Part shown: piece after piece, positions 23,995 through 46,874 of the stretch
How positions within the stretch are numbered: position 1 is the first letter of the stretch
Layout: every line of letters begins with the position of its first letter
Source: Bifidobacterium sp. ESL0690
GTDB taxonomy: Bacteria > Actinomycetota > Actinomycetes > Actinomycetales > Bifidobacteriaceae
Assembly (NCBI RefSeq): GCF_029392315.1
Contig: NZ_CP113939.1
Coordinates: 248,001 to 312,000, forward strand
Direction: 5' to 3'
DNA length: 64,000 bases
Notes under the pieces: generated by a model
Told to the model about the DNA's origin: nothing
The model's database searches: none
Seen by the model: the letters and a program-made list of their open reading frames with translations, nothing else
Translations under genes and position numbers: made by a program

Positions 23995-24104
23995 AGTGTT
24001 CGGGTCTGTGCGTTGAGCCTTGTCTGGGCAAGCCTTTGGGTCGCTGCTTCATTGCTGGGATGTCTAAGGGCACATGACTATAGCTTTAACGACGTTTTGA
24101 TAAT

Positions 24105-24191
24105 TGGTAATTTTATGCTATCAATTTATGAGAAAGTGGCAATTTTATTTTGCCATTTTTTAAATAATTGGTAAGATTACTTTACCGGTTG
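24105..24191. repeat. 32-bp iterons upstream of the first DUF4143 ATPase
   Basis: Repeats begin at 24105, 24137 and 24169, exactly 32 bp apart, each starting TGGTAA or TGGCAA. Each also contains an inverted partner: TGGTA with TATCA, TGGCAA with TTGCCA, and GGTAA with TTACC. The third copy ends at the Shine-Dalgarno GGAGGA. The layout resembles autoregulatory operators. Confidence 0.75.
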
Positions 24192-24199
24192 GAGGAATT

Positions 24200-25579
24200 A
24201 TGGATACGGTCATTGCACAGAAGATACAGGACTTTTCGTTGGATGATTTTCGCCCCATCGTCCCGCGTGACCTTGATTTGGGTAAACCTCTGACGCCTAA
24301 AGTTGGCAACCTTGTCAAAGTCGTTATCGGTATGAGACGCAGCGGTAAAAGCTACCGTCTTTTTCAGGAGATGGACAGGCTCCTTGTCTCAGGTGTTGAG
24401 ACCGAACGTATCTGTTATTTCAATTTTGAGGATGACAGGCTCGGTAAGGTCACTTCGGCCACCGGCGACGCGGTGCTTGATACCTTCTTCTTGTTGCACC
24501 CGCAAGCGCAGGATGGAGGAGTGTACCTGTTTTTCGACGAGCTTCAGGAGATGGAGAATTGGGGCAAATGGCTGCGTCGCGTGGTGGATACCATGAAAGC
24601 GACCATCTATGTCAGCGGGTCATCTTCAAAGATGCTTTCCAGCGAGGTTTCCACAGAGTTCCGTGGCCGTGCGCTTGATTTTGAGTTGCTGCCATACTCC
24701 TTTCGTGAATTTGTGCGGGCGTATGGCGGACTTGAAGGTGACTCAGGTGAAGTTGGGAAAACCATTGGCAAAGCCGGTTTCTATTCCACTCAGGAACAGA
24801 TTTATCTGCGACGAGCCTTCGCCGAATATCTCGACCGTGGAGGTTTCCCTGCAGCGCAAAGTCTTCCGATGCCGCAGGCCATTGCTCTTCTGCAGGGCTA
24901 TGTGCAGCGCGTGGTGGCCGGGGATGTTGTAGAGCGTCACAACATCGGTCGTCCGCAAGTGGTGGTGGCGTTCGCCCGGAGGGTACTTGGTTCCAATGGT
25001 AAAAGCATCTCTTTGCGTAAAATTGAGAACGATTTGCGCAGTGCCGGGCTTGATTCGAGCCGTGCGTTGCTCAGCGACGTTCTGAAATATTTCGAGGAGG
25101 CCTATCTGCTGTTCGCATTGAAGGAATTCTCGGTGTCGTTAAGTGCCAACACAACGGCTCGGCCCAAGATTTATGCCGTCGATCCCGGGCTGGCGCTCGC
25201 GTATTCTCGGGCGAGTGTAAGCGATGTGGGGCAGCGGCTTGAGCAATCTGTCTATCTTGAATTGCGTCGGCGAAACGTTGGTTTACGCCGTGATGGTATT
25301 TCGTCGTATCGTACAAAAAAGCAAGGTTATGAAGTTGATTTCGTGGTCGGTGATGTACTGGGGCACGAGGCCTACGAGCTCTATCAGGTCACCGTTTCGA
25401 TGGACGATGAGCAGACCGCGCGGCGCGAGCTGCGTGCCCTTTGGGAGGTCATGGATGAGCAGGGAATGAGAGAGGCCACGCTCATCGTCCTTGATGGTGA
25501 AGCGAAAGATTATCGCGATGGTTCGCATATTGTCCATCAAGTCCCGGCTTGGCTTTGGTTCGCTGACACAGCTGCGTAG
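24200..25579 (+). CDS. AAA-type ATPase with DUF4143 domain
   Basis: A 459-residue protein. Walker A is VIGMRRSGKSYRLF near residues 46-57 and Walker B is VYLFFDELQEMENW near 110-123. SGSSSKMLSSEVSTEFRGR, the sensor region, follows, then the DUF4143 part with a C-terminal nuclease-like fold containing the EVDFVVGD motif near 380. Such proteins are very common in gut bacteria and archaea, often in variable regions; their role is not settled (defence, transcription control or mobile-element functions have been suggested). It is a single-gene unit preceded by 32-bp iterons. A second, divergent member lies at 38156, also behind iterons. Composition is less GC-rich than the neighbours, consistent with acquisition. 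Confidence 0.85.
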   Translation: MDTVIAQKIQDFSLDDFRPIVPRDLDLGKPLTPKVGNLVKVVIGMRRSGKSYRLFQEMDRLLVSGVETERICYFNFEDDRLGKVTSATGDAVLDTFFLLHPQAQDGGVYLFFDELQEMENWGKWLRRVVDTMKATIYVSGSSSKMLSSEVSTEFRGRALDFELLPYSFREFVRAYGGLEGDSGEVGKTIGKAGFYSTQEQIYLRRAFAEYLDRGGFPAAQSLPMPQAIALLQGYVQRVVAGDVVERHNIGRPQVVVAFARRVLGSNGKSISLRKIENDLRSAGLDSSRALLSDVLKYFEEAYLLFALKEFSVSLSANTTARPKIYAVDPGLALAYSRASVSDVGQRLEQSVYLELRRRNVGLRRDGISSYRTKKQGYEVDFVVGDVLGHEAYELYQVTVSMDDEQTARRELRALWEVMDEQGMREATLIVLDGEAKDYRDGSHIVHQVPAWLWFADTAA

Positions 25580-33241: not shown

Positions 33242-33271
33242 ATCAATGATGATCAATGATGATCAATGATG
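33242..33271. repeat. Three perfect 10-bp tandem repeats
   Basis: ATCAATGATG is repeated three times without change. The tract lies 41-70 bp upstream of the minus-strand esterase start, in the 300-bp gap before rsmI. The unit length equals about one DNA helical turn. Nothing else is seen in this gap. Confidence 0.8.
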
Positions 33272-33503: not shown

Positions 33504-34523
33504 ATGGATACAGGTGATATGAAATCTGCGGGAAACGAGACTGATGGACGCGAGGTGCCAGAAGACGCGATTGATGAACGAAATGGTCGCGGAGACCGTG
33601 AACGAAAGGTGCCGAAAGATGGCGTGATGGTCGAGATTCCGCGGGGAACGGTGGTGTTGGCAGCAACCCCGATTGGCAATGTCGGGGATGCTTCGGCCAG
33701 ACTTCGGGCGTTGCTGGAACGTGCGGATATCGTTGCGGCGGAGGATACGCGGCGACTTTACGATTTGGCGAACCGACTCGGCGTGCATGTCAGCGGGCGC
33801 GTCGTCGCCAATCATGACCACAATGAGCGCGCGAAGGCCGACGGTCTGCTCGACGAAGTCGAGCGTGGTGCGACCGTGCTGGTGGTTTCGGACGCGGGCA
33901 TGCCCACCGTCAACGATCCGGGCGTGGCCATCGTCCGTCGTGCCATCGAGCGCGATTTGCCGGTGACCTGTGCTCCTGGCCCCTCCGCTGTGCTTGATGC
34001 GCTTGCGCTTTCTGGCCTGCCGACCGACCGCTTCTGCTACGAGGGCTTCGTGCCGCGCAAGCACAACGAACGCATCCAGCGCTTCCGCTCGTTGCTGGGC
34101 GAGCGGCGCACCATCGTTTTTTATGAAACGCTGCATCGCATCGCCGAAACCATGGACGATCTGCTTGAGATGTTCGGCCCAGACCGTCCGATGGCCCTGT
34201 GCCGCGAACTGACGAAAGATTACGAGCAGATTCGCCGCGGAACTATCGGCGAAATCCATCAGTCCGTCATCGATGACCCGCCGCGCGGCGAAATCGTCTT
34301 GGTCATCGCCGGCGCGAGCGAGGATGAAGCCCTCAAAGCCAGCGAGGCCACAGCAGCGGTCCTGAGCGTCGATGATTTGGCAGCGCTCGCCGTCGAACGT
34401 GCCGCCAAAACCAACGAGCGCATCAAGGACGCCATCGCCGAAGTCGTCAAAGCCCATCCGCTCCCCGACGGCTCCCTCCCCAATCGCAAGGCCGTCTACA
34501 CCGCCGCGCTCAAGCTGAAGTAA
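33504..34523 (+). CDS. rsmI: 16S rRNA (cytidine 1402-2'-O)-methyltransferase
   Basis: A 339-residue SAM-dependent tetrapyrrole-methylase-fold enzyme. Signature stretches are GTVVLAATPIGNVGDASARLR near residue 48, ADIVAAEDTRRL near 76, VLVVSDAGMPTVNDPG near 130, and GPSAVLDALALSGLP near 160. RsmI methylates C1402 in the ribosomal P site. The first 40 or so residues are a charged, low-complexity stretch with no family match, so the true start may be the later Met at 33627 (MVEIPRG). The upstream ATG has only a weak Shine-Dalgarno. This core gene marks the left border of an accessory insert ending at tatD. Confidence 0.93.
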   Translation: MDTGDMKSAGNETDGREVPEDAIDERNGRGDRERKVPKDGVMVEIPRGTVVLAATPIGNVGDASARLRALLERADIVAAEDTRRLYDLANRLGVHVSGRVVANHDHNERAKADGLLDEVERGATVLVVSDAGMPTVNDPGVAIVRRAIERDLPVTCAPGPSAVLDALALSGLPTDRFCYEGFVPRKHNERIQRFRSLLGERRTIVFYETLHRIAETMDDLLEMFGPDRPMALCRELTKDYEQIRRGTIGEIHQSVIDDPPRGEIVLVIAGASEDEALKASEATAAVLSVDDLAALAVERAAKTNERIKDAIAEVVKAHPLPDGSLPNRKAVYTAALKLK

Positions 34524-34599
34524 AGGTAGCGAGTATAGGCGAGGTCGTTTCATCATGCATATTGCAATACGATAAAACGTAAGTAATGGATAGTGGAAC

Positions 34600-35526
34600 T
34601 TACCTTTGTACGTCGATTTTGTGGTACGCCGGCAGTAGTACCTGCTCGTATCGCTGGGTCAAGATGCGCTTGTGATATTCGCGGTATTCGTCGTCAGCCA
34701 CATGCACGCCTGCGTACTCGCTTGGCAAGCTGTCAAACAGTGCGTCGAGCTGAGCTTGATCATAGCTAGATATGAACCGTGCCAGCGCCTTGTTGCATTC
34801 CTCGTCCTGTCCGGAGGCAATGTATTTCAGCGGCGCGATATGGTGTCCCCTGTCGTCGAGATAGCAGGAACGCACGTCTAGGACGTCTTGATTGAGTAGT
34901 TTTTCGTCATGCAAATGTTGGTGAATTTGTTTCGGTGTGCGCTTGTTATAAAGCGAGCTGCCATTGTCGTAGACGGGGGCGAGTTCTGTGTGCTCGCCGT
35001 CGATGAGAATGCCCCAGTTTGTGTTGTTGCGGTCGACGTTGCGTATAAACGAATCGACGATGAACATATCCCAGAACCGTTCGATAGTGCCGGGAATTCG
35101 GTTAAGCCAAGGGTGGCGGTAAATAGTGGCCCTCACGTCGGCGAGTACGACGTTGCGCCCGTCTGAAGGGGAGCCGGAGAAGCCGGTCTCATCGTCCGAC
35201 ATGGAGTTCTTGAGTTCACGGAATTCGACGAGTCTGCCATGGCCTGCTTCGAAATCCTTGCAGGCGCAGACCAGTTTCCCCTCGCGTATGCCGAGTTTCG
35301 TCTCGTGTACGTCAATGCCGTGCATCGCATATATCTGGGAACCTAGGAATTCGGAAAGCGGGGCTGACGTATAAGATGGCACGGAGCCGGCTAGCTCTTT
35401 TGTGGGGCCGGGGAATTTGAGCATCCAGTCTTCGCCCTCCCAGTTCACGCCCACCTTGCGCCCCGCGTCGCCGCCGTAGAACCGTCCGGAATCGGGGCAT
35501 GGCTCAAAATTCACCAGTTTCAGCAT
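34600..35526 (-). CDS. Stand-alone HipA-like kinase
   Basis: A 308-residue protein with the HipA/CtkA-type kinase core: the ATP-binding Lys in WMLKFPG near residue 37, the catalytic loop VDSFIRNVDRNNTNWG near 157-172, and the metal-binding APVYDNGSS near 183-191. HipA is usually about 430 residues and follows a HipB antitoxin gene; this protein is shorter and has no HipB-like gene next to it. GGAGG lies upstream of the start. CtkA-like stand-alone kinases phosphorylate Ser or Thr. It points toward the rsmI end of the insert. Its target is unknown; a toxin, an immune sensor or a regulatory kinase are all possible. Confidence 0.78.
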   Translation of the reverse strand: MLKLVNFEPCPDSGRFYGGDAGRKVGVNWEGEDWMLKFPGPTKELAGSVPSYTSAPLSEFLGSQIYAMHGIDVHETKLGIREGKLVCACKDFEAGHGRLVEFRELKNSMSDDETGFSGSPSDGRNVVLADVRATIYRHPWLNRIPGTIERFWDMFIVDSFIRNVDRNNTNWGILIDGEHTELAPVYDNGSSLYNKRTPKQIHQHLHDEKLLNQDVLDVRSCYLDDRGHHIAPLKYIASGQDEECNKALARFISSYDQAQLDALFDSLPSEYAGVHVADDEYREYHKRILTQRYEQVLLPAYHKIDVQR

Positions 35527-35714
35527 GTGTGCCTCCGTTCATTGCGTTTATTGAGGTTTTGGGTGGCTTACTTTTTTATTATCTCATTCTAATGGTCAAG
35601 AATATTGACAATGAGCGAAGAGCGTTGTTCATATTGCTTTTGTTGTTCGCTGCATTGAAATACGACTATTGATAATGTTAGAAATGGCTGGGAAGGAACA
35701 AGGAGGGAACAAAT

Positions 35715-36104
35715 ATGGGTTTTATATATCAAATAGTTGTAGTGACTTTCCTTGTGGCGTTCATTTTTCTTGCTGTCGAGGTAGTTGCCACTTTGTGCCA
35801 TATTGGAATCCGAGACTTTGTAAAAGCTGTTGAAGATAAAATCGTTTACTACCCTCGAGCAGCTTCGGTTCTGGCGTTCTTTAAAATTCCTGATTTTCTA
35901 TTGGCTCTCCTAACAGTTTTTGCGGTCTGGTTTCTTCAAGAAAATAAACTATCGGGTTTTATACGGTTTCATGATGATACTTCCGTCGAGAAATCGTTAT
36001 TTACACTGGCAATTTCAGCAGATATCGGATTAACGGCATTACTGTCTTTGGCTATTACTTTTTTGCATTCTTTCCGGTCTGCAGATGAAAGCAGCATGTA
36101 TTGA
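35715..36104 (+). CDS. Membrane protein of unknown family, gene 1 of a two-gene module
   Basis: A 129-residue protein with hydrophobic segments near residues 5-28, 55-75 and 98-118, so three membrane spans are likely. A strong Shine-Dalgarno (AAGGAGGGAAC) precedes the ATG. I recognise no family. It overlaps the next gene by 20 bp, which indicates coupled expression of the two products. The base composition is clearly more AT-rich than that of rsmI or tatD, suggesting recent acquisition. Confidence 0.72.
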   Translation: MGFIYQIVVVTFLVAFIFLAVEVVATLCHIGIRDFVKAVEDKIVYYPRAASVLAFFKIPDFLLALLTVFAVWFLQENKLSGFIRFHDDTSVEKSLFTLAISADIGLTALLSLAITFLHSFRSADESSMY

Positions 36105-37836
36105 GAACCCATATAGCCAATATTTACAGAAACAATGGCCTTTTAAACTGGTAACGAGCCAGATTTTTGGTTTGTATGTGATTGGTTTGTATGCGCTTCC
36201 GCTTGTTTCTGCTGCACTTCGTGCCTTCTACGGAAATACCAAACAATGGTTTACTCAATTTTCTGAAGATTCCATTTTATTCGATATATGGCTTTCAGTT
36301 TACTGTGCTGCGTTATTGATTTTGGCTTTTACTGTTTATGCCGCTTTGCGTTTCAATCATTCATCTCAGTGGATAGAGGAGCAGGGGAAAAATATTATTA
36401 AGCAGAATATCACTCATAGATTTCATGGCTATCTCAATGCGGATATTAAGGATGGGCATTATGCCGAATCAATTAGACAACTTAAATCTGAAATTGGTGA
36501 ATTAGATGGCGACCGGTCCAAGATCACCTATATTAAATACGCTTTTGGTGACTGGTGGGGATTAGATGTTGAGGAGCCTATTTATGCGGCGTTGCATCTT
36601 ACACACAGTGGGGAACGCAATAGATTCAATGATCTTACTCGCAATACAGTGGATCTTGATAAGCGAGTATTCGAAGTAGCGGTGTATTTAGAACTAAAGT
36701 GGAGATTTCTGTACAATTCTGGCTTGGGAAATTCATCTGGTTTTATTGAGCTGCTTGCTCAGCAAAGACGGGAAGATGAAGAGCTCCTTGACAAGATATC
36801 AGCTTTATGGCCTGGTTGGTATGCAAATTATTTTAACGGTACTCGTGTGGGTGTGTCGGAATTAATGAACCATTGGCCTGAAGATAACGGCGAGCCAAAA
36901 CTTGATGTGGTACGAGCGATGATTGAGCAGTGTTACGGTAATTTAGTTTGTCGTACTGAGGATGAAGAAGGTTCCGAGGCATGGCTGTCCGAAATGTTGC
37001 AGGGGCATATCGGGGAAGAGGCATCTACTGACAAGTCTTCACAGCGTGATGTGCAAAAAAATACCGAAGATTATCTTTTTAAGCTGGCTGTGGCATTTCT
37101 TGTGCAAACGCTCGGGGACTCTAAGACTCAAGAGCGATGGGATAATCAGCGTCAAGAGGAACGTTGGCTTAGAAATGTGTGTCTTGATTCAGTATTCAAC
37201 CAATCGAAAAGCCAGGCCGTGCTTGACGAGCTGTGGTCTTTTATCTCTGCTCCCAATCTGACGGCGATTTCTGAATGGTCGTTGAAAAGTGTTTACGATA
37301 TATTGCCGTTTGAGAAAAGAGTCAGTCATTTGATATGGCTTGGTGCATATGATTATTCCGATGACCGGTTGAAGCTAGTAGCTGCTCAACATTACGAGTT
37401 GTATGAAGGCGGATTGCAGAAAGATAGTCCGCTGATTAATGGTGAGGTCTGTGAGTTGCAAGGTGGCAGAACAATCAATAAAGATGCTTTAAAGGCAGCG
37501 GTCTGGGATGACTTGGATAGTGCTTCATACCCCATTGACTCATGGTGTTCTCAGGAGAAAATAGACGAGGTCATTGATACCTTATTTGATTCTTCGATTA
37601 GCATGGACCTTTTTGGCGATGATCGGAACGAACAATTTGATCCGCTCTATCTGTTGATGTTGAAATGTTGTATGTGCAGCGAGTGGGAAGTCTGTAAGGA
37701 GCTGAATACGATTATTGATATGGGTGAATCAGTATGCGTTGATGTCAAGATGCAAAAGGAAATTGAATTGTATAAGGAAAGGTATCCTCAAGCTATGCCG
37801 AGAGTAATAGAAAAGCTTGAGTCCCTCGAAAAATGA
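36085..37836 (+). CDS. Large membrane-anchored protein of unknown family, gene 2 of the module
   Basis: A 583-residue protein. Two hydrophobic segments near residues 22-46 and 68-92 form an N-terminal membrane hairpin, followed by about 480 hydrophilic residues presumably in the cytoplasm. That domain is rich in Glu, Trp and Tyr, has a Cys cluster (LKCCMCSEWEVCKEL) near residue 530, and looks helical. I see no Walker, nuclease, kinase or protease motif. The start overlaps the previous gene, with no strong Shine-Dalgarno of its own, so coupling is likely. Codon use is AT-rich. A membrane-bound effector or sensor paired with the small membrane protein is an inference from the layout only. Confidence 0.72.
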   Translation: MKAACIENPYSQYLQKQWPFKLVTSQIFGLYVIGLYALPLVSAALRAFYGNTKQWFTQFSEDSILFDIWLSVYCAALLILAFTVYAALRFNHSSQWIEEQGKNIIKQNITHRFHGYLNADIKDGHYAESIRQLKSEIGELDGDRSKITYIKYAFGDWWGLDVEEPIYAALHLTHSGERNRFNDLTRNTVDLDKRVFEVAVYLELKWRFLYNSGLGNSSGFIELLAQQRREDEELLDKISALWPGWYANYFNGTRVGVSELMNHWPEDNGEPKLDVVRAMIEQCYGNLVCRTEDEEGSEAWLSEMLQGHIGEEASTDKSSQRDVQKNTEDYLFKLAVAFLVQTLGDSKTQERWDNQRQEERWLRNVCLDSVFNQSKSQAVLDELWSFISAPNLTAISEWSLKSVYDILPFEKRVSHLIWLGAYDYSDDRLKLVAAQHYELYEGGLQKDSPLINGEVCELQGGRTINKDALKAAVWDDLDSASYPIDSWCSQEKIDEVIDTLFDSSISMDLFGDDRNEQFDPLYLLMLKCCMCSEWEVCKELNTIIDMGESVCVDVKMQKEIELYKERYPQAMPRVIEKLESLEK

Positions 37837-38041
37837 AGAACTTATAGATATTTCTAGTACCATCCTTTGTTATCGGTTATCTTGACAGATGCAGGTTTTG
37901 CAAATACATATGTGTATTGATGATTATCGTTAGGAGTAAGGCCGTTGATATCTTGCCCACGTGTTGTTGGCAAGATGCGTCAATTATATAGAAATTTTCA
38001 AGAGAGAACTAGTAAAGTTTCCGCCCTCAACTATATAAAAT

Positions 38042-38140
38042 TGGCAATAGCGCTAAATTTACCTATGGTAAAACTGGCGGAAATGCAGAATTTTCCTATG
38101 GTAAAATTGGCAAATCATAAGAAATTTCCTAGGGTAAAAC
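38042..38140. repeat. Three 33-bp iterons upstream of the second DUF4143 ATPase
   Basis: Units at 38042, 38075 and 38108 are each exactly 33 bp. They share a TGGC start, CCTATGG or CCTAGGG near position 21, and GTAAAA at the end; a fourth TGGC follows at 38141. The first unit contains the palindrome TTTACC-TAT-GGTAAA. The array ends 5 bp before the Shine-Dalgarno AGGA of the ATPase. A short frame reading through the array (37945-38211) is an artefact of the repeat. Confidence 0.82.
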
Positions 38141-38155
38141 TGGCAGGATGTGGTT

Positions 38156-39484
38156 ATGAAGCGTTTGATTATGGCTCAATTGAAGCGTTGGAAAGACTCG
38201 AAAGATCATGACCCTCTGGTGTTGTGCGGGGCGCGGCAGGTAGGCAAGACGTATGTTTTGAAAGAGTTCGGGCGGCAGGAATATGAATCTTGCGTGTATA
38301 TCAACCTGATGAATGATGAAGCCAAAAGGGTGTTCGACGCCGGATATGATGCCAAACAGGTGCTGGCCAATATCGGAATCTATGCGAGGCAGAATGTCGT
38401 GCCTGGCAAAACGCTGGTAATCATCGATGAGATTCAGGAAGTCCCGTCGGCCATGACCCTGATGAAGGCGTTCAAGGAAGATACGCCCGAACAGGATATC
38501 GTCGCTGCCGGCTCTTATCTGGGAATCACTTTACACGCGGGCATTTCGTTTCCGGTCGGGAAAGTCGAGATGCTCGATATGTACCCGATGACGTTCATCG
38601 AATTCCTGTGGGCGAACGGTGAGGAACCTCTAGCCAAGGTCATTGAGCGTTTGGATTTCAAAACGGCTTCAGCGTTTTCGGAACGTCTGGAACGTTACTT
38701 GCGCGAATACTACTATGTCGGTGGCATGCCGGAAGCGGTCAAGATGTTCATCGAGGGGGAGGGCCACGAGGATTATGCTGCAGCCCGTTCGGTGCAACGC
38801 AGATTGCTGCGCGACTACAACGCCGATTTCTCCAAACATATTCCTGATGGCGTTGAAGCGGAGCGCGTTCGTTTGACGTTCGATTCTATTCCAGCGCATC
38901 TTGGCCGGGAGAATCACAAGTTCGTCTTCGGCCATATCGCCAAAGGTGCTCGGGCGCGGCAATTTGAGACAGCCATCCAGTGGATTGTCGATTCGGGCCT
39001 GGCCAACCGTGTCTATCGCGTCGATAAAGTGGCGAAACCGCTGAAGTTCTACCGGGACTTGTCGGCTTTCAAACTCTATCTCCATGATGTCGGCTTGCTG
39101 GGCGCGACGATGGGAATCGAAGCCAAGGACGTTTTGCTTTCTGACAAGGCGTTGACTGAATATAAAGGCGCGATGACTGAACAATATGTTTGCCAGCAGC
39201 TGGTCGCCGGCGGCAACGTTTCATATTACTGGACGGCGGGTGAGAGCCGCCCGGCCGAAGTGGATTTCGTAGTCGAGCACGCAGGTACGGTCGCGCCTTT
39301 GGAAGCGAAAGCCGAGGAAAATCTGCAGGCGAAAAGCCTCAGGTCGCTTTGCACGAAAACCGGTCTGCACGGCTATCGCACCTCTATGTCTGGCTATCGC
39401 GAGCAGGACTGGATGACGAACGTCCCGCTGTGGGCAGTAGGTCCGTATTTTGCGGTTGAGGATTTTGTGGACTTTGCGGAATAG
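38156..39484 (+). CDS. AAA-type ATPase with DUF4143 domain (second copy type)
   Basis: A 442-residue ATPase. Walker A is LCGARQVGKTYVLKEF near residues 21-36 and Walker B is TLVIIDEIQEVPSA near 85-98. A typical sensor stretch, AGSYLGITLHAGISFPVGKVEMLDMYPMTF (quoted here in part by position, about 119-148), follows, and the C-terminal domain has the nuclease-like EVDFVVEHAG motif near 365 with EAKAEENLQAKS after it. The chosen ATG at 38156 has AGGA seven bases upstream; GTG 38150 is an alternative. It differs clearly from the member at 24200, so the two are not recent duplicates. It is the last gene of the insert, 10 bp before tatD. Confidence 0.86.
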   Translation: MKRLIMAQLKRWKDSKDHDPLVLCGARQVGKTYVLKEFGRQEYESCVYINLMNDEAKRVFDAGYDAKQVLANIGIYARQNVVPGKTLVIIDEIQEVPSAMTLMKAFKEDTPEQDIVAAGSYLGITLHAGISFPVGKVEMLDMYPMTFIEFLWANGEEPLAKVIERLDFKTASAFSERLERYLREYYYVGGMPEAVKMFIEGEGHEDYAAARSVQRRLLRDYNADFSKHIPDGVEAERVRLTFDSIPAHLGRENHKFVFGHIAKGARARQFETAIQWIVDSGLANRVYRVDKVAKPLKFYRDLSAFKLYLHDVGLLGATMGIEAKDVLLSDKALTEYKGAMTEQYVCQQLVAGGNVSYYWTAGESRPAEVDFVVEHAGTVAPLEAKAEENLQAKSLRSLCTKTGLHGYRTSMSGYREQDWMTNVPLWAVGPYFAVEDFVDFAE

Positions 39485-39494
39485 ACTGGACGGC

Positions 39495-40451
39495 ATGAGC
39501 AAGAAACATCGGGATCGAAGCTGGGCGCCGGCGCCGGAGGCGTTGCCGGACGGGGTGCACGTGGTCGACGACCATACGCATGTGGCGAGCGTGGTGCCGT
39601 TCGCGCGCGAGATGAACCGGCAGGCCATCGAGCGCGACCAGCCGCCGGTGCCGGTCTACAGCGTCGACGAGATTTTGGATCAAGCCAAAGCCGTCGGCGT
39701 CGAAGGCGTTATCGATGTGGGCTGCGAGCTGCCAAACCTCAAAGTCGCCGTCCAGATGGCGTTCGATCATCCCAAAACTGTCCACGCAGGTCTTGCGATT
39801 CATCCGAACGAAGCCGTTTTGCACGGCCATCGGGGAGTGCCTGGACCGGATGGCTTGCCGTTGAAATACCAGCCGTGGCACGATGTGAGTTTCGAGGACG
39901 CGCTTGCGGAAGTCCACCGGTTGGCCACGAAATACCCTGAGCAGGTGGTTGCTATCGGCGAGACCGGTATGGACCTGTTCCGTACCGGCGAGGCTGCGAT
40001 GGAAATCCAGCGCGACGCCTTCCGCGCCCATATCGCGCTGGCCAAGGAATTGAATCTGCCCATGCAGATTCACGACCGCGATGCCCACAAAGAGGTCATC
40101 GAAACGCTGCTCAAAGACGGCAGCCCGGAACGCACCGTCTTTCATAGCTGGTCCGGCGACACCGAACTTGCCCAGATCGCAAAGCAGCAGGGCTGGTATC
40201 TGAGTTTCTCCGGCGCATCCAGTTTCAAAAGCAACGAGGAGATCCGCAAGTCCGCGGCCATCGTGGGCCTGGACCACATCATGGTCGAAACCGACGCTCC
40301 TTATTTGACTCCGATGCCGTATCGCGGACGACCGAACGCCCCGTATATGATTCCTTACACCTTGAAGGCGCTCGCAGACACCCTTGATTTGCCGATAGGT
40401 GAAGTCGCGAGAGCGACGCGCGAAACGACGAGGGCTGTGTACGGCGTATAA
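39495..40451 (+). CDS. tatD: TatD family metal-dependent DNase
   Basis: A 318-residue TIM-barrel amidohydrolase. Motifs are VVDDHTHVAS near residue 26 (metal-binding His-x-His), VVAIGETGMDLF near 153 (Glu ligand), LPMQIHDRDAH near 190 (His ligand), TVFHSWSG near 215 (His ligand) and MVETDAPYLTPMPYRG near 262 (Asp ligand). TatD enzymes are 3'-5' exonucleases linked to DNA repair and quality control. ATG 39495 has GGACGG upstream; the frame opens 45 bp earlier but overlaps the ATPase gene. It is commonly near rsmI in bacterial genomes, which is why the genes between them look inserted. Confidence 0.9.
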   Translation: MSKKHRDRSWAPAPEALPDGVHVVDDHTHVASVVPFAREMNRQAIERDQPPVPVYSVDEILDQAKAVGVEGVIDVGCELPNLKVAVQMAFDHPKTVHAGLAIHPNEAVLHGHRGVPGPDGLPLKYQPWHDVSFEDALAEVHRLATKYPEQVVAIGETGMDLFRTGEAAMEIQRDAFRAHIALAKELNLPMQIHDRDAHKEVIETLLKDGSPERTVFHSWSGDTELAQIAKQQGWYLSFSGASSFKSNEEIRKSAAIVGLDHIMVETDAPYLTPMPYRGRPNAPYMIPYTLKALADTLDLPIGEVARATRETTRAVYGV

Positions 40452-43568: not shown

Positions 43569-43799
43569 GTATGCCTTGGTTCCAACAAAAGGGGAGATGG
43601 CGGTAAATGACGTGTTCTCACGGCATAATTTCAGTGTTGAAATCTTGAATAATGAAGCATGCTGGTGTTGCTGTTTTTGCCTCAAAACGGCGTAAAACCG
43701 CCTATTTTCTGTTGATTTCCGAAGCCATTATCTAGTAAAAAATATATTTGTATGAAGATATCTAACTTCGATTTTGGTTTTCACAAATAGATGGCTAGA

Positions 43800-43836
43800 C
43801 TTGCCCGTTGGTCTGTAAACGAGCGTGCTCGGCAAG
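43800..43836 (+). promoter_or_regulatory. Structured leader of the second kup gene
   Basis: CTTGCC (43800) pairs with GGCAAG (43831). The loop holds GTTGGT, GTAAACGAG and GCTCGG, aligning with the leader at 40596. It ends about 53 bp before the start codon. The stem sequences differ between the two leaders while the pairing is kept, which favours RNA structure over simple sequence identity. Confidence 0.5.
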
Positions 43837-43889
43837 TGGATTTGACAAGAAGACAAGCGCGTAAAGTTTCCGTTTCTGGAGGACAAATC

Positions 43890-46874
43890 ATGGCGCAATC
43901 GCAACATCATGGGTCAAGTGAACCTCAAAATCGTCAGCAGGAGCAGAATCCACAAAATCAGGAAGTTCGCAGGCGCGTTCGTGGCCGTAAAAAAACCGAG
44001 GACACCGGTGCGGTTGACAAGGCTGCTGACGAACGTAAGGTTGCCGGTGGTGTTGACGAGATGACCGGTGAGGCCGGCAAGGTTGTCGGTGATGCAGGCA
44101 AGGTCGGCAATGCTGGCAATGTAGGCAAGTCCGACAAGGTTGGCAAGGCTGCTGATGGCGTCAACAATGCAGTCAAAGCCGTCAAAGCTGCCGATAATGC
44201 CGGCAAAACAACGCGGGCCAAAACTCCGTTGGAAGTGGCCGCCAAAGCAAAAGCGGTAAACGCTGCCGACGAAGTAACTTCTCACGCGCGCAAGGGCGCA
44301 GCTAAAGTTGCTGGCAAAGCGAAAGCCAAGGCTGAGGCGGCAGAAGACGTCGCCGAAACGTCACTGCAAACGCGCAAGGCTTCCACCAAAGCGACTAAAG
44401 CCAAGAAAACCGCCGTCCACGCGGAAAAGAAGGCGGCTGGAGCCGAAAAGAAGGTCGCCAATGTCGAGCGCAAGGCCAAAGCCGCCGAACGCAAGGTGGC
44501 CAGCGCGGAAAAGAAGGCACTGACTGCCGAGCAACGGGCCGCGGCGGCCGAGAAGAAGGCCCTGCTGCGTGCCGACACGTTCACCAACGCGCCCAAGGTC
44601 TCGCGCGATACGTTGACCCGTGAAGAGCGCGAAGAGATTGCCAAGCACGCCAAGGAGGAACGTGAGGAAGCCGAGAAGCTGACCAAGACCTCGCGCAGCC
44701 CGATCGGCCGCTGGTGGCGCAAGGTGCAGGCCAGCCCCGACAAGGTGACGCTCGCGATGGCCATCGTCACCCTCGGCGTGGTCTACGGCGACATCGGCAC
44801 CTCCCCGCTCTACACCGTCCAGACGTTCCTGGCAGGGCAGGGCGGGCTCGCGAAAATTGACCGGCCTGCGGTTCTCGGTATGCTTTCGCTGATTTTCTGG
44901 ACTCTGCTGCTCATTACCACCGTCAAATATGTGCTGGTCGCCATGCATGCCGACAACAAAGGTGAGGGCGGCATTTTTGCGCTGTTCTCGCTGGTGCGGC
45001 ACTATGGCAAATGGCTGGTCGTGCCTGCGATGATTGGCGGCGCGGCCTTCCTGGCCGATTCCGTGCTGACTCCGGCCGTTTCGATTTCCTCGGCAGTGGA
45101 GGGCCTCAAAACCATTCCCGCTTTCACTCACGCGTTCGAAGAAAACACCAACCTCACCTTGATGATCACCATCATCATTATTGTGGTGCTTTTCTCCGTC
45201 CAGGCGCGCGGCACCGAAAGCATCGGCAAGGTCTTCGGCTCGGTCGTGCTGGTCTGGTTCGCGTTCCTCGCGCTGGTTGGCATCGTGAACCTGAGTGGTG
45301 ATTGGACCATTTTCGAGGCCATTAACCCGGTCTACGGCGTTGAATTCCTCTTCAGCTCGCATAACGTCGCGGGTCTTTCGCTCATGGGCACGGTGTTCCT
45401 CGCGACCACCGGTGCCGAGGCGCTTTACTCCGACATGGGTCACGTTGGCCGTGGCAATATCTACTTCACCTGGCCCTTCATCAACGTCGCGCTCGTCCTC
45501 AACTACTTCGGCCAGGGCGCGTGGATGCTCAACAACCGCGGCGATAAGTCGCTGGCCGGCATGACTGTCAACCCGTTCTTCCAGATGATGAGTCCCAATG
45601 TGCGCTACGTTGGCGTTATCCTCTCGGTGGCTGCGGGTGTGATCGCCTCCCAGGCCTTGATTACCGGTGCGTTCACGATGGTTTCGGAAGCCACCGGCCT
45701 CAACTGGATGCCCCATCTTCAGGTGCGCTACCCCTCGCGTACCCGTGGCCAGCTCTATATCCCGACCGTCAATGTCGTGCTATGTATAGCGACCCTTACG
45801 GTGCTGGCTATTTTCAAGGATTCCGAGCACATTTCCGCCGCGTACGGTTTGGCATTGACCATCACCATGTTGGCGACGACGATTTTGTTGACCACCTACG
45901 TTTGGCATCACCATCATCGCGTGGGCGCCGTATGTTTCTTCGCGTTGTTCGTCACCACCGATTCGCTTTTCTTCATCTCCTCGATGTCGAAGTTCCTGCG
46001 CGGCGGCTGGTTCACGATGCTGCTTACGGCCGTAATCTTGCTGATTATGATTACGTGGAACGACGGCACCAAGATCGAACGTTCGCAGCGTCGCCATATG
46101 AAGCCGCGCGATTTCAAACCGACGCTTGCGAAATTGCATGACGATTTCCGTATTCCTTACTTCGCCGACAATATCGTCTACCTCACTTCCGACTCCGAGT
46201 TGCGCCGGCTTGACACTGATATCTTCTTCTCGATTTTCGCTGACCATCCCAAGCGTGCCCGCGCCTGGTGGGCCGTCTCGGTGGTCACGACCGACGAGCC
46301 GTTCACGCGCGAATATTCCGTCGAGGACTTCGGTACGGACTACATTTTCCGTGTTCGGATCAAGCTCGGTTTCAAGGTTTCGCAATCGATTCCTGCCTAT
46401 ATTCACCAGATTATGCACGACCTGTCCGCTTCCGGAGAGCTGCCGGAGCAGAAGTCGGTCTACCCGAAGGTGGATGCGGATCCCGATATCGGCACGGTGC
46501 GTTACGTCCTCGTGCACAAGGCCCTGATGCCGGAATCCAAGATTACCGGCCGCGAGGCGCTGAGCCTCAAGATGAAGTACGCTATCCGCCGCGTGGCCGG
46601 TTCGCCGGTCAAGTGGTTCGGCCTGGCCCCCTACAATCCGGTGGTCGAGGTCCAGCCGCTCTTCCTTTCCACTCGCCGCCCCCCGCGCCTGAAGCGCGTT
46701 GCGTTCCGTAAGCCTCGCCGATCGGAATCGCATAATGATTCTGCGGCGCAGTCATCCGCAACTCAAGGCGTTTCTGGGACGAGCATGATGGTAAAGTCAA
46801 AAACCGAAGCTGAGGCCGACAAGGGTGAACGAAAGAGTCCTTCCGTTGTCGACAAACGTTCAAGGACTGAGTGA
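43890..46874 (+). CDS. kup: KUP/HAK potassium uptake transporter, second tandem copy
   Basis: A 994-residue paralogue of the preceding gene, nearly identical through the membrane core (GVVYGDIGTSPLYT near residue 297) and the cytosolic domain. Its N-terminal extension is about 285 residues. Residues 50-130 are repeats of Val/Gly/Ala/Asp/Lys such as GKVGNAGNVGKSDKVGKA, and residues 165-260 are Ala-Lys-Glu coiled-coil repeats. The C-terminal tail is short and unlike that of the first copy. ATG 43890 has TGGAGG upstream and starts MAQSQ exactly as the first copy does; the frame opens further back at 43791 without a site. Two copies with diverged tails suggest different regulation or partners. 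Confidence 0.93.
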   Translation: MAQSQHHGSSEPQNRQQEQNPQNQEVRRRVRGRKKTEDTGAVDKAADERKVAGGVDEMTGEAGKVVGDAGKVGNAGNVGKSDKVGKAADGVNNAVKAVKAADNAGKTTRAKTPLEVAAKAKAVNAADEVTSHARKGAAKVAGKAKAKAEAAEDVAETSLQTRKASTKATKAKKTAVHAEKKAAGAEKKVANVERKAKAAERKVASAEKKALTAEQRAAAAEKKALLRADTFTNAPKVSRDTLTREEREEIAKHAKEEREEAEKLTKTSRSPIGRWWRKVQASPDKVTLAMAIVTLGVVYGDIGTSPLYTVQTFLAGQGGLAKIDRPAVLGMLSLIFWTLLLITTVKYVLVAMHADNKGEGGIFALFSLVRHYGKWLVVPAMIGGAAFLADSVLTPAVSISSAVEGLKTIPAFTHAFEENTNLTLMITIIIIVVLFSVQARGTESIGKVFGSVVLVWFAFLALVGIVNLSGDWTIFEAINPVYGVEFLFSSHNVAGLSLMGTVFLATTGAEALYSDMGHVGRGNIYFTWPFINVALVLNYFGQGAWMLNNRGDKSLAGMTVNPFFQMMSPNVRYVGVILSVAAGVIASQALITGAFTMVSEATGLNWMPHLQVRYPSRTRGQLYIPTVNVVLCIATLTVLAIFKDSEHISAAYGLALTITMLATTILLTTYVWHHHHRVGAVCFFALFVTTDSLFFISSMSKFLRGGWFTMLLTAVILLIMITWNDGTKIERSQRRHMKPRDFKPTLAKLHDDFRIPYFADNIVYLTSDSELRRLDTDIFFSIFADHPKRARAWWAVSVVTTDEPFTREYSVEDFGTDYIFRVRIKLGFKVSQSIPAYIHQIMHDLSASGELPEQKSVYPKVDADPDIGTVRYVLVHKALMPESKITGREALSLKMKYAIRRVAGSPVKWFGLAPYNPVVEVQPLFLSTRRPPRLKRVAFRKPRRSESHNDSAAQSSATQGVSGTSMMVKSKTEAEADKGERKSPSVVDKRSRTE

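Follow-up and report, generated by a model that had tools for sequence, protein, structure and literature searches.

Plasmid Rep proteins assemble on iterons, and the archaeal Cdc6/Orc1 proteins on origin recognition boxes, in both cases on repeated DNA adjoining the gene of the protein concerned. We describe here a related arrangement in Bifidobacterium sp. ESL0690 (contig NZ_CP113939.1, positions 248,001 to 312,000; this stretch of 64,000 nt is referred to as the window), where a gene for an ATPase with AAA_14 and DUF4143 domains is directly preceded by a tandem array of 33-bp units, a feature missed by the first-pass annotation of this DNA. The proposed likeness is that of an AAA-winged-helix (or, for iterons, Rep) protein with repeats beside its own gene; the DUF4143 ATPase differs from these proteins in having a C-terminal nuclease-like domain. 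A second comparison is offered by RptR, which in the available portion of its description (PMC12255303) is a repressor of a defence island that binds a few direct repeats within its own promoter. RptR is a protein of its own, of 9 kDa, and its repeats are 9 bp long; in arrays of the type seen in the window the repeats recur every 22–46 bp, and it is the ATPase itself that is the constant protein.

The window ATPase has the domain order, PADLOC score and multi-copy, patchy distribution of the DUF4143 AAA_14 ATPases grouped as PDC-S01 which, like the PDC-M03A family discussed below, is a candidate defence family. According to the available part of one survey, PDC-S01 belongs to the PD-(D/E)XK nuclease superfamily and ranks fourth by frequency among prokaryotic defences (29,494 bacterial and 9,986 archaeal detections), with validation pending for most PDC families (PMC12988326). 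A link between DUF4143 and upstream repeats was not found in the open literature, including the available portions of PMC4406477, PMC12988326, PMC13356809 and PMC12255303; most subscription papers and all bioRxiv preprints lay outside this search.

The array upstream of DUF4143 genes

In what follows G000 is the ESL0690 genome, other G numbers are its relatives and L numbers are loci. Periodicity was scored as the best period of 18–60 bp in 300 upstream bases and compared with 100 dinucleotide shuffles, the floor of the test being 1/101. The window contains two arrays, each followed by a DUF4143 gene:

38026–38145, + strand: tandem array of 33-bp units, near 38059, 38092 and 38125, with a degenerate one near 38026 (by eye)
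38156–39484, + strand: AAA_14–winged helix–DUF4143 ATPase, candidate PDC-S01 member (AAA_14 88.6 bits, DUF4143 108.9 bits)
24104–24199, + strand: second array, of 32-bp repeats (L007; period 32 at the shuffle floor)
24200–25579, + strand: second DUF4143 ATPase gene (L007; 61.1 bits, over the cut-off)

The 33-bp repeats (38056–38145) end about ten bases 5′ of the ATPase start, and period 33 is at the shuffle floor for this locus (L002). The unit is a variant of a shared core (AAAACTGGC); a pattern for it, written after the sequence was seen, has three matches in the array against a shuffle mean of 0.08, and no place elsewhere in the genome was found to match at 0–1 mismatch. The repeats at 24104–24199, which extend as far as the ribosome site, are palindromic in appearance (TTGGTAA...TTTACC type). 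Each of the nine DUF4143 genes in the genome is preceded by an array; eight are at the floor, while the ninth was judged on its period score with no shuffles run. The arrays of the other genes have periods of 32, 33, 34, 40 or 46 bp (the last resolving to 23 in L001) and different units.

Surveys beyond this genome show that DUF4143 (PDC-S01) genes, that of the window included, often have a tandem array directly upstream. In a first set from ESL0690 and the genus, 34 of 35 loci were at the floor upstream and four of 35 downstream, with a period of 22, 23 or 46 bp in 29 of the 35; in a second such set the figures were 27 of 31 and two of 31, with a period of 32 or 33 in 26 of the 27 (loci where the script found no gene, 3/38 and 9/40 respectively, had been dropped). 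A broad set was made up of the best 80 of at least 354 confirmed relatives in genome contigs, two being dropped for short upstream DNA, and its titles include Bacillota groups, Bacteroidota, Fibrobacter, Spirochaetes, Chlamydiae, Akkermansia/Verrucomicrobia, Elusimicrobia, Cloacimonadota, Alpha- and Gammaproteobacteria, Anaerolineaceae, Cyanobacteria, WOR-3 and Propionibacteriaceae. Here 48 of 78 loci were at the floor upstream, 45 of them with a period of 32 or 33, against 4 of 75 downstream. When 250 bases and a range of 15–70 bp were used, the best upstream period was 33 in 30/78 and 32 in 21/78, while downstream 33 was best in 4/77 and 32 was not among the eight commonest periods; only upstream does the mean period score have its maxima at 32 and 33.

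The same position is marked by short sequences within the units. AAAAATGT occurs upstream in 36 loci of the broad set and downstream in two, and pairs of AAAARTGT-type cores 30–35 bp apart number 68 in 23,285 nt of upstream DNA (37 loci) against one in the other 332,447 nt of these loci. Successive cores on the same strand are most often spaced by 33 bp (24 times), 32 (22), 34 (10) or 31 (7), and the chains lie on the gene strand only in 29 loci, on the other only in seven, on both in one and on neither in 41. In six of 20 Bacteroidota loci a core stands 5–8 nt before TAnnTTTG (random placement: mean 0.4, maximum 3), which we take to be the −7 promoter element of that phylum.

Three control families behaved differently. 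None of 30 HipA genes was at the floor upstream; seven of 30 rsmI genes were, with periods of 20, 21, 24, 27, 43, 57 and 60 and none of 32 or 33, which we think reflects repetitive N-terminal coding sequence and uncertain starts; and for the sister DUF234 ATPases the counts were 4/30 upstream (periods 26, 36, 36 and 51) and 3/30 downstream. With control counts this low and periods this mixed, the upstream array is specific to DUF4143 among the families tested. Its period and unit also follow the protein subfamily, being 32–34 bp for most proteins of about 430–460 residues and 22–23 or 46 bp for most of about 390 residues. Of 111 loci, 72 had a clear 31–34-bp unit (the other 39 were left out), and in these unit similarity grows with protein identity, from 0.41 at identities below 40 % to 0.64 at those above 80 % (Mantel test: r 0.35, p 0.001). 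We note that one array (L369; G070:C6:42906-43293), 5′ of a DUF4143 gene, has 17 exact matches, one every 23 bp, to a unit pattern of 20 bp, which is far more units than an ordinary operator has.

The ATPase itself scores 545 bits against the PADLOC PDC-S01 profile, and the residues D370, E383 and K385 of its C-terminal domain (D-x(n)-E-x-K) are invariant in alignments of 18 and 55 sequences. Residues 1–320 have a fold near those of the archaeal ATPases PABY2304 and SSO1545; these, with the STAND/NLR proteins, stand apart from it in sequence (12–13 % identity). ORC/Cdc6 chains are among the top Foldseek matches (TM-scores 0.22–0.33), and no PD-(D/E)XK nuclease is among the structure matches listed, which span mainly residues 1–354, the C-terminal domain not having been searched alone. 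In one DUF234 ATPase the residues matching HTH_IclR also match positions 20–75 of the DUF4143 model weakly (E 0.0078, below cut-off). A phage origin of the ATPase was considered and rejected: it is not a typical phage gene, since 2.9 million viral contigs contain only 19 relatives of the ~440-residue group and five of the ~390-residue group, and a relative is present in 13 of 50,697 phage records, each of the 13 being an unannotated faecal contig. In the 12 of these 19 viral loci that were inspected, the best period was 33 in eight (no shuffles).

Arrays that stand without a gene

The site of the insert, between rsmI and tatD, was compared across ESL0690 and 13 relatives, the 14 genomes whose rsmI matches were best. 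Five of these (G082, G083, G085, G091 and G092) have one to four units at the site and no DUF4143 ATPase gene there, their best homologue anywhere being at most 41 % identical. Allowing up to three mismatches, all 25 matches to the window unit in the 14 genomes fall either here or at a second chromosomal site, where G087 has an ATPase orthologue (79 %) with three near-identical units in front of it, each two mismatches from the search pattern; at that second site G083 and G093 have units and no gene. One 23-bp unit, searched for in 112 genomes of the genus with up to two mismatches, is found at ten array places in nine genomes, and a check within about 1.5 kb of each gave the gene at five, a gene with its middle missing at one (G017) and none at four. 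In G001 the array and a ribosome-site-like stretch are kept without a gene, and in G025 (L357, G025:C2:329961-330044) a short relic of an ATPase C-terminus (64 % over 28 residues) stands just after rsmI.

We read the gene-less arrays as places where a gene was probably lost and its array left behind. A tree of rsmI plus tatD, in which several supports are low, did not distinguish gain of the ATPase gene from its loss. The arrays may have been retained under selection, or the orphans may be slowly decaying relics; among the five gene-less alleles core identity is 89 % and spacer identity 73 %, a difference that could also come from homogenisation of the repeats.

The site between rsmI and tatD and its other cargo

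The first-pass annotation had described the insert as four genes between two core genes, namely a stand-alone HipA-like kinase, two AT-rich membrane genes of no recognised family and a DUF4143 ATPase, and had suggested from a composition shift and the gene content that it might be a defence or conflict island. The features other than the array and ATPase are:

33504–34523, + strand: rsmI, left flank (PF00590, TP_methylase, 6.9e-32; match in 111 of 112 genus genomes)
34600–35526, − strand: stand-alone HipA_C kinase (PF07804, 35.1 bits, cut-off 30.5)
35715–36104, + strand: N-terminal piece of a multi-transmembrane membrane gene, matching a single 719-codon open reading frame (ORF) in G086 (44 %) and a 220-codon ORF in G089 (93 %)
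36085–37836, + strand: C-terminal piece of the same gene (60 % identical to G086, 79 % to G089)
39482–39487, + strand: TAGACT, possible −10 element of tatD overlapping the ATPase stop codon, with an identical hexamer just 5′ of tatD in relatives with and without the ATPase
39495–40451, + strand: tatD, right flank (PF01026, TatD_DNase, 3.4e-61; match in 111 of 112 genus genomes)

The flanks (rsmI ending at 34523 and tatD starting at 39495), the kinase and the ATPase were as described, the last two with Pfam models above cut-off (HipA_C for the kinase, AAA_14 and DUF4143 for the ATPase). The start codon of rsmI is uncertain, the match beginning 20–48 codons later in many relatives. Three perfect 10-bp repeats (ATCAATGATG) are found upstream of it at window positions 33242–33271.

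Both membrane ORFs are AT-rich and neither matches any family over cut-off in the profile libraries, as had been said, but they are two pieces of one gene, which is a single 719-codon frame in G086 and is broken in G089 at a different place from that in G000. The window pieces are 76–93 % identical to the G089 copy, and DNA alignment gives G000 a small length difference from both relatives near the ORF junction. The C-terminal piece is matched in four of the 112 genus genomes, its own included; in G097 there is a more remote homologue, with 30 % identity across some 100 residues, which adjoins an overlapping ORF and may likewise be in two ORFs, and no relative was confirmed in the broad collection of genome contigs. 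In G088 the membrane gene's place beside the kinase is occupied by a protein of 575 residues, for which some ten transmembrane helices are predicted (L048:5171-6895, minus strand); STING_TM was considered for it and set aside, the match being weak (E 0.003) and below cut-off.

The kinase scores 81.5 bits against the PADLOC candidate family PDC-M03A, and its closest solved structure is CtkA (3akj, E 5.9e-29). The stretches DRNNTNWG and LAPVYDNGSSL look catalytic and presumably correspond to HipA-type motifs. It thus resembles the CtkA/HipA-type kinases in its HipA_C domain and its match to CtkA, and departs from them in that no antitoxin partner was recognised: no ORF for a helix-turn-helix antitoxin was seen by eye at the locus, small ORFs not having been scanned with hidden Markov models. 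Copies 91–98 % identical are present at the same site in G086, G088 and G089. Elsewhere in the genus, at G056:C13:42725-44646 (L367 and L374), two arrays of the same 23-bp unit have a HipA_C match (43699–44241) between them and a DUF4143 gene after the second only.

The composition shift is likewise only partly upheld, since the G+C fraction of the kinase (0.552) and the ATPase (0.535) is near that of the window (0.552), and only the middle of the insert is AT-rich, namely the broken-gene ORFs (0.39 and 0.42) and the spacers and array (0.35–0.38, the array 0.35). Across the 14 genomes the distance between the rsmI and tatD matches is 175, 589, 1188, 1317, 3744, 4194, 4749, 4926, 4974 (ESL0690), 14235, 19213, 19854, 21276 or 22860 bp. 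The interval is nearly empty in G092; G089 has the same cargo as the window, G088 the kinase, the ATPase and the unrelated membrane gene, and G086 the kinase and membrane gene without the ATPase at the site; the cargo of G082 includes a DUF234 ATPase, and in several other relatives the ORFs resemble genes for sugar uptake or hydrolysis, as judged from their translations without hidden Markov models. The genes of the insert are thus absent from some of these genomes and shared or replaced in others, and rsmI–tatD is a variable site whose modules combine differently. The PADLOC candidate matches speak for the defence idea, but a dedicated defence hotspot is too strong a description, because several relatives have other, sugar-gene-like cargo there.

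What the array may do

The link between array and gene is firm, and the best overall explanation of it, which on the sequence comparisons we think rather probable, is that the array is a self-recognised operator or docking array of the PDC-S01 ATPase. Since the neighbouring genes differ in the loci inspected for this and the ATPase is constant, we infer that the array is most naturally read by the ATPase. The ATPase is likely to bind the array itself, and would do so through its winged helix, which lies between the AAA domain and the C-terminal D-x(n)-E-x-K (nuclease-like) domain; where the array adjoins or overlies the promoter, the bound ATPase could plausibly repress its own gene and would stay held there. 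The defence step is a guess, namely that invasion by foreign DNA would cause binding to be lost, raising expression and freeing the ATPase/nuclease to act. The kinase would be a CtkA-like module of its own, and the membrane gene a third one in decay.

Several observations weigh against an array read by its own product. No array period at the floor was seen in 30 of the 78 broad loci, 41 of the 78 have no chain of two cores, a Vibrio plasmid copy has no visible array and two other plasmid or record copies are weak; common ancestry, moreover, means that the loci are not independent. Apparent promoter overlap is seen only in a Bacteroidota subset. The units are mostly direct (the dyad score averages 5.80, and 5.66 for shuffles; at least seven of eight dyad pairs in 9/44 units against 11 % of shuffles), unlike the usual operators of dimers, and arrays persist without the gene, which a pure self-operator would not need. 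An early impression of a general palindromic operator was not upheld, the dyad score being barely above shuffles; individual palindromic-looking units occur in the window, at a Verrucomicrobia locus, at a Chlamydiae locus and on an Acinetobacter plasmid.

Direct, oriented repeats, with chains on the gene strand only in 29 loci against the other only in seven, would also suit a loading platform rather than an operator, on which the ATPase forms an oriented oligomer, in the manner of Rep proteins on iterons or Cdc6/Orc1 on origin boxes, and from which it acts on DNA. The many-unit array of L369 and the ORC/Cdc6 structure matches point the same way, but in a subset of loci the arrays abut a promoter-like element and the C-terminal domain retains its nuclease-like residues, and we consider this reading unlikely; we know of no replication function for DUF4143 ATPases. 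A distinctly less likely proposal is that the ATPase is one half of a pair whose restraining partner is DNA and not a protein: the array would keep a potentially harmful nuclease-ATPase inactive, with arrays matched to paralogues and gene-less arrays protecting against a re-arriving ATPase in the manner of orphan antitoxins. The gene-less arrays could instead be unfilled insertion targets into which the ATPase gene homes, as the five relatives with an array and no gene at rsmI–tatD, the two such arrays at the second site and the alignable spacer to tatD in the five gene-less alleles would allow; but periodic arrays are rare downstream (4/75), G001 and G017 indicate loss and G025 keeps a 3′ relic, so that homing appears quite improbable.

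That the kinase, membrane protein and ATPase of the insert make up one defence system would accord with the same gene order in G000 and G089 and with the pairing of kinase and ATPase in G088. It is nevertheless very improbable, given that G086 lacks the ATPase at the site, that the membrane gene of G088 is unrelated, that the ATPase of G087 lies elsewhere with no HipA_C match nearby and that the membrane gene is broken in both G000 and G089. Finally, an array 5′ of tatD at the gene-less sites might be thought to regulate the downstream neighbour, or to be a chance low-complexity stretch; this we regard as extremely improbable, since the ATPase is constant while neighbours differ in the loci inspected, the shuffle, downstream and family controls speak against it, and the association of array and ATPase across phyla already contradicts it.

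The presence of an array in front of many genes of this family offers an immediate, testable way into three questions: the target bound by the ATPase, the means by which it is silenced and the avoidance of cross-talk among paralogues. Since arrays can outlast their genes, they may also help to find former members of PDC-S01.

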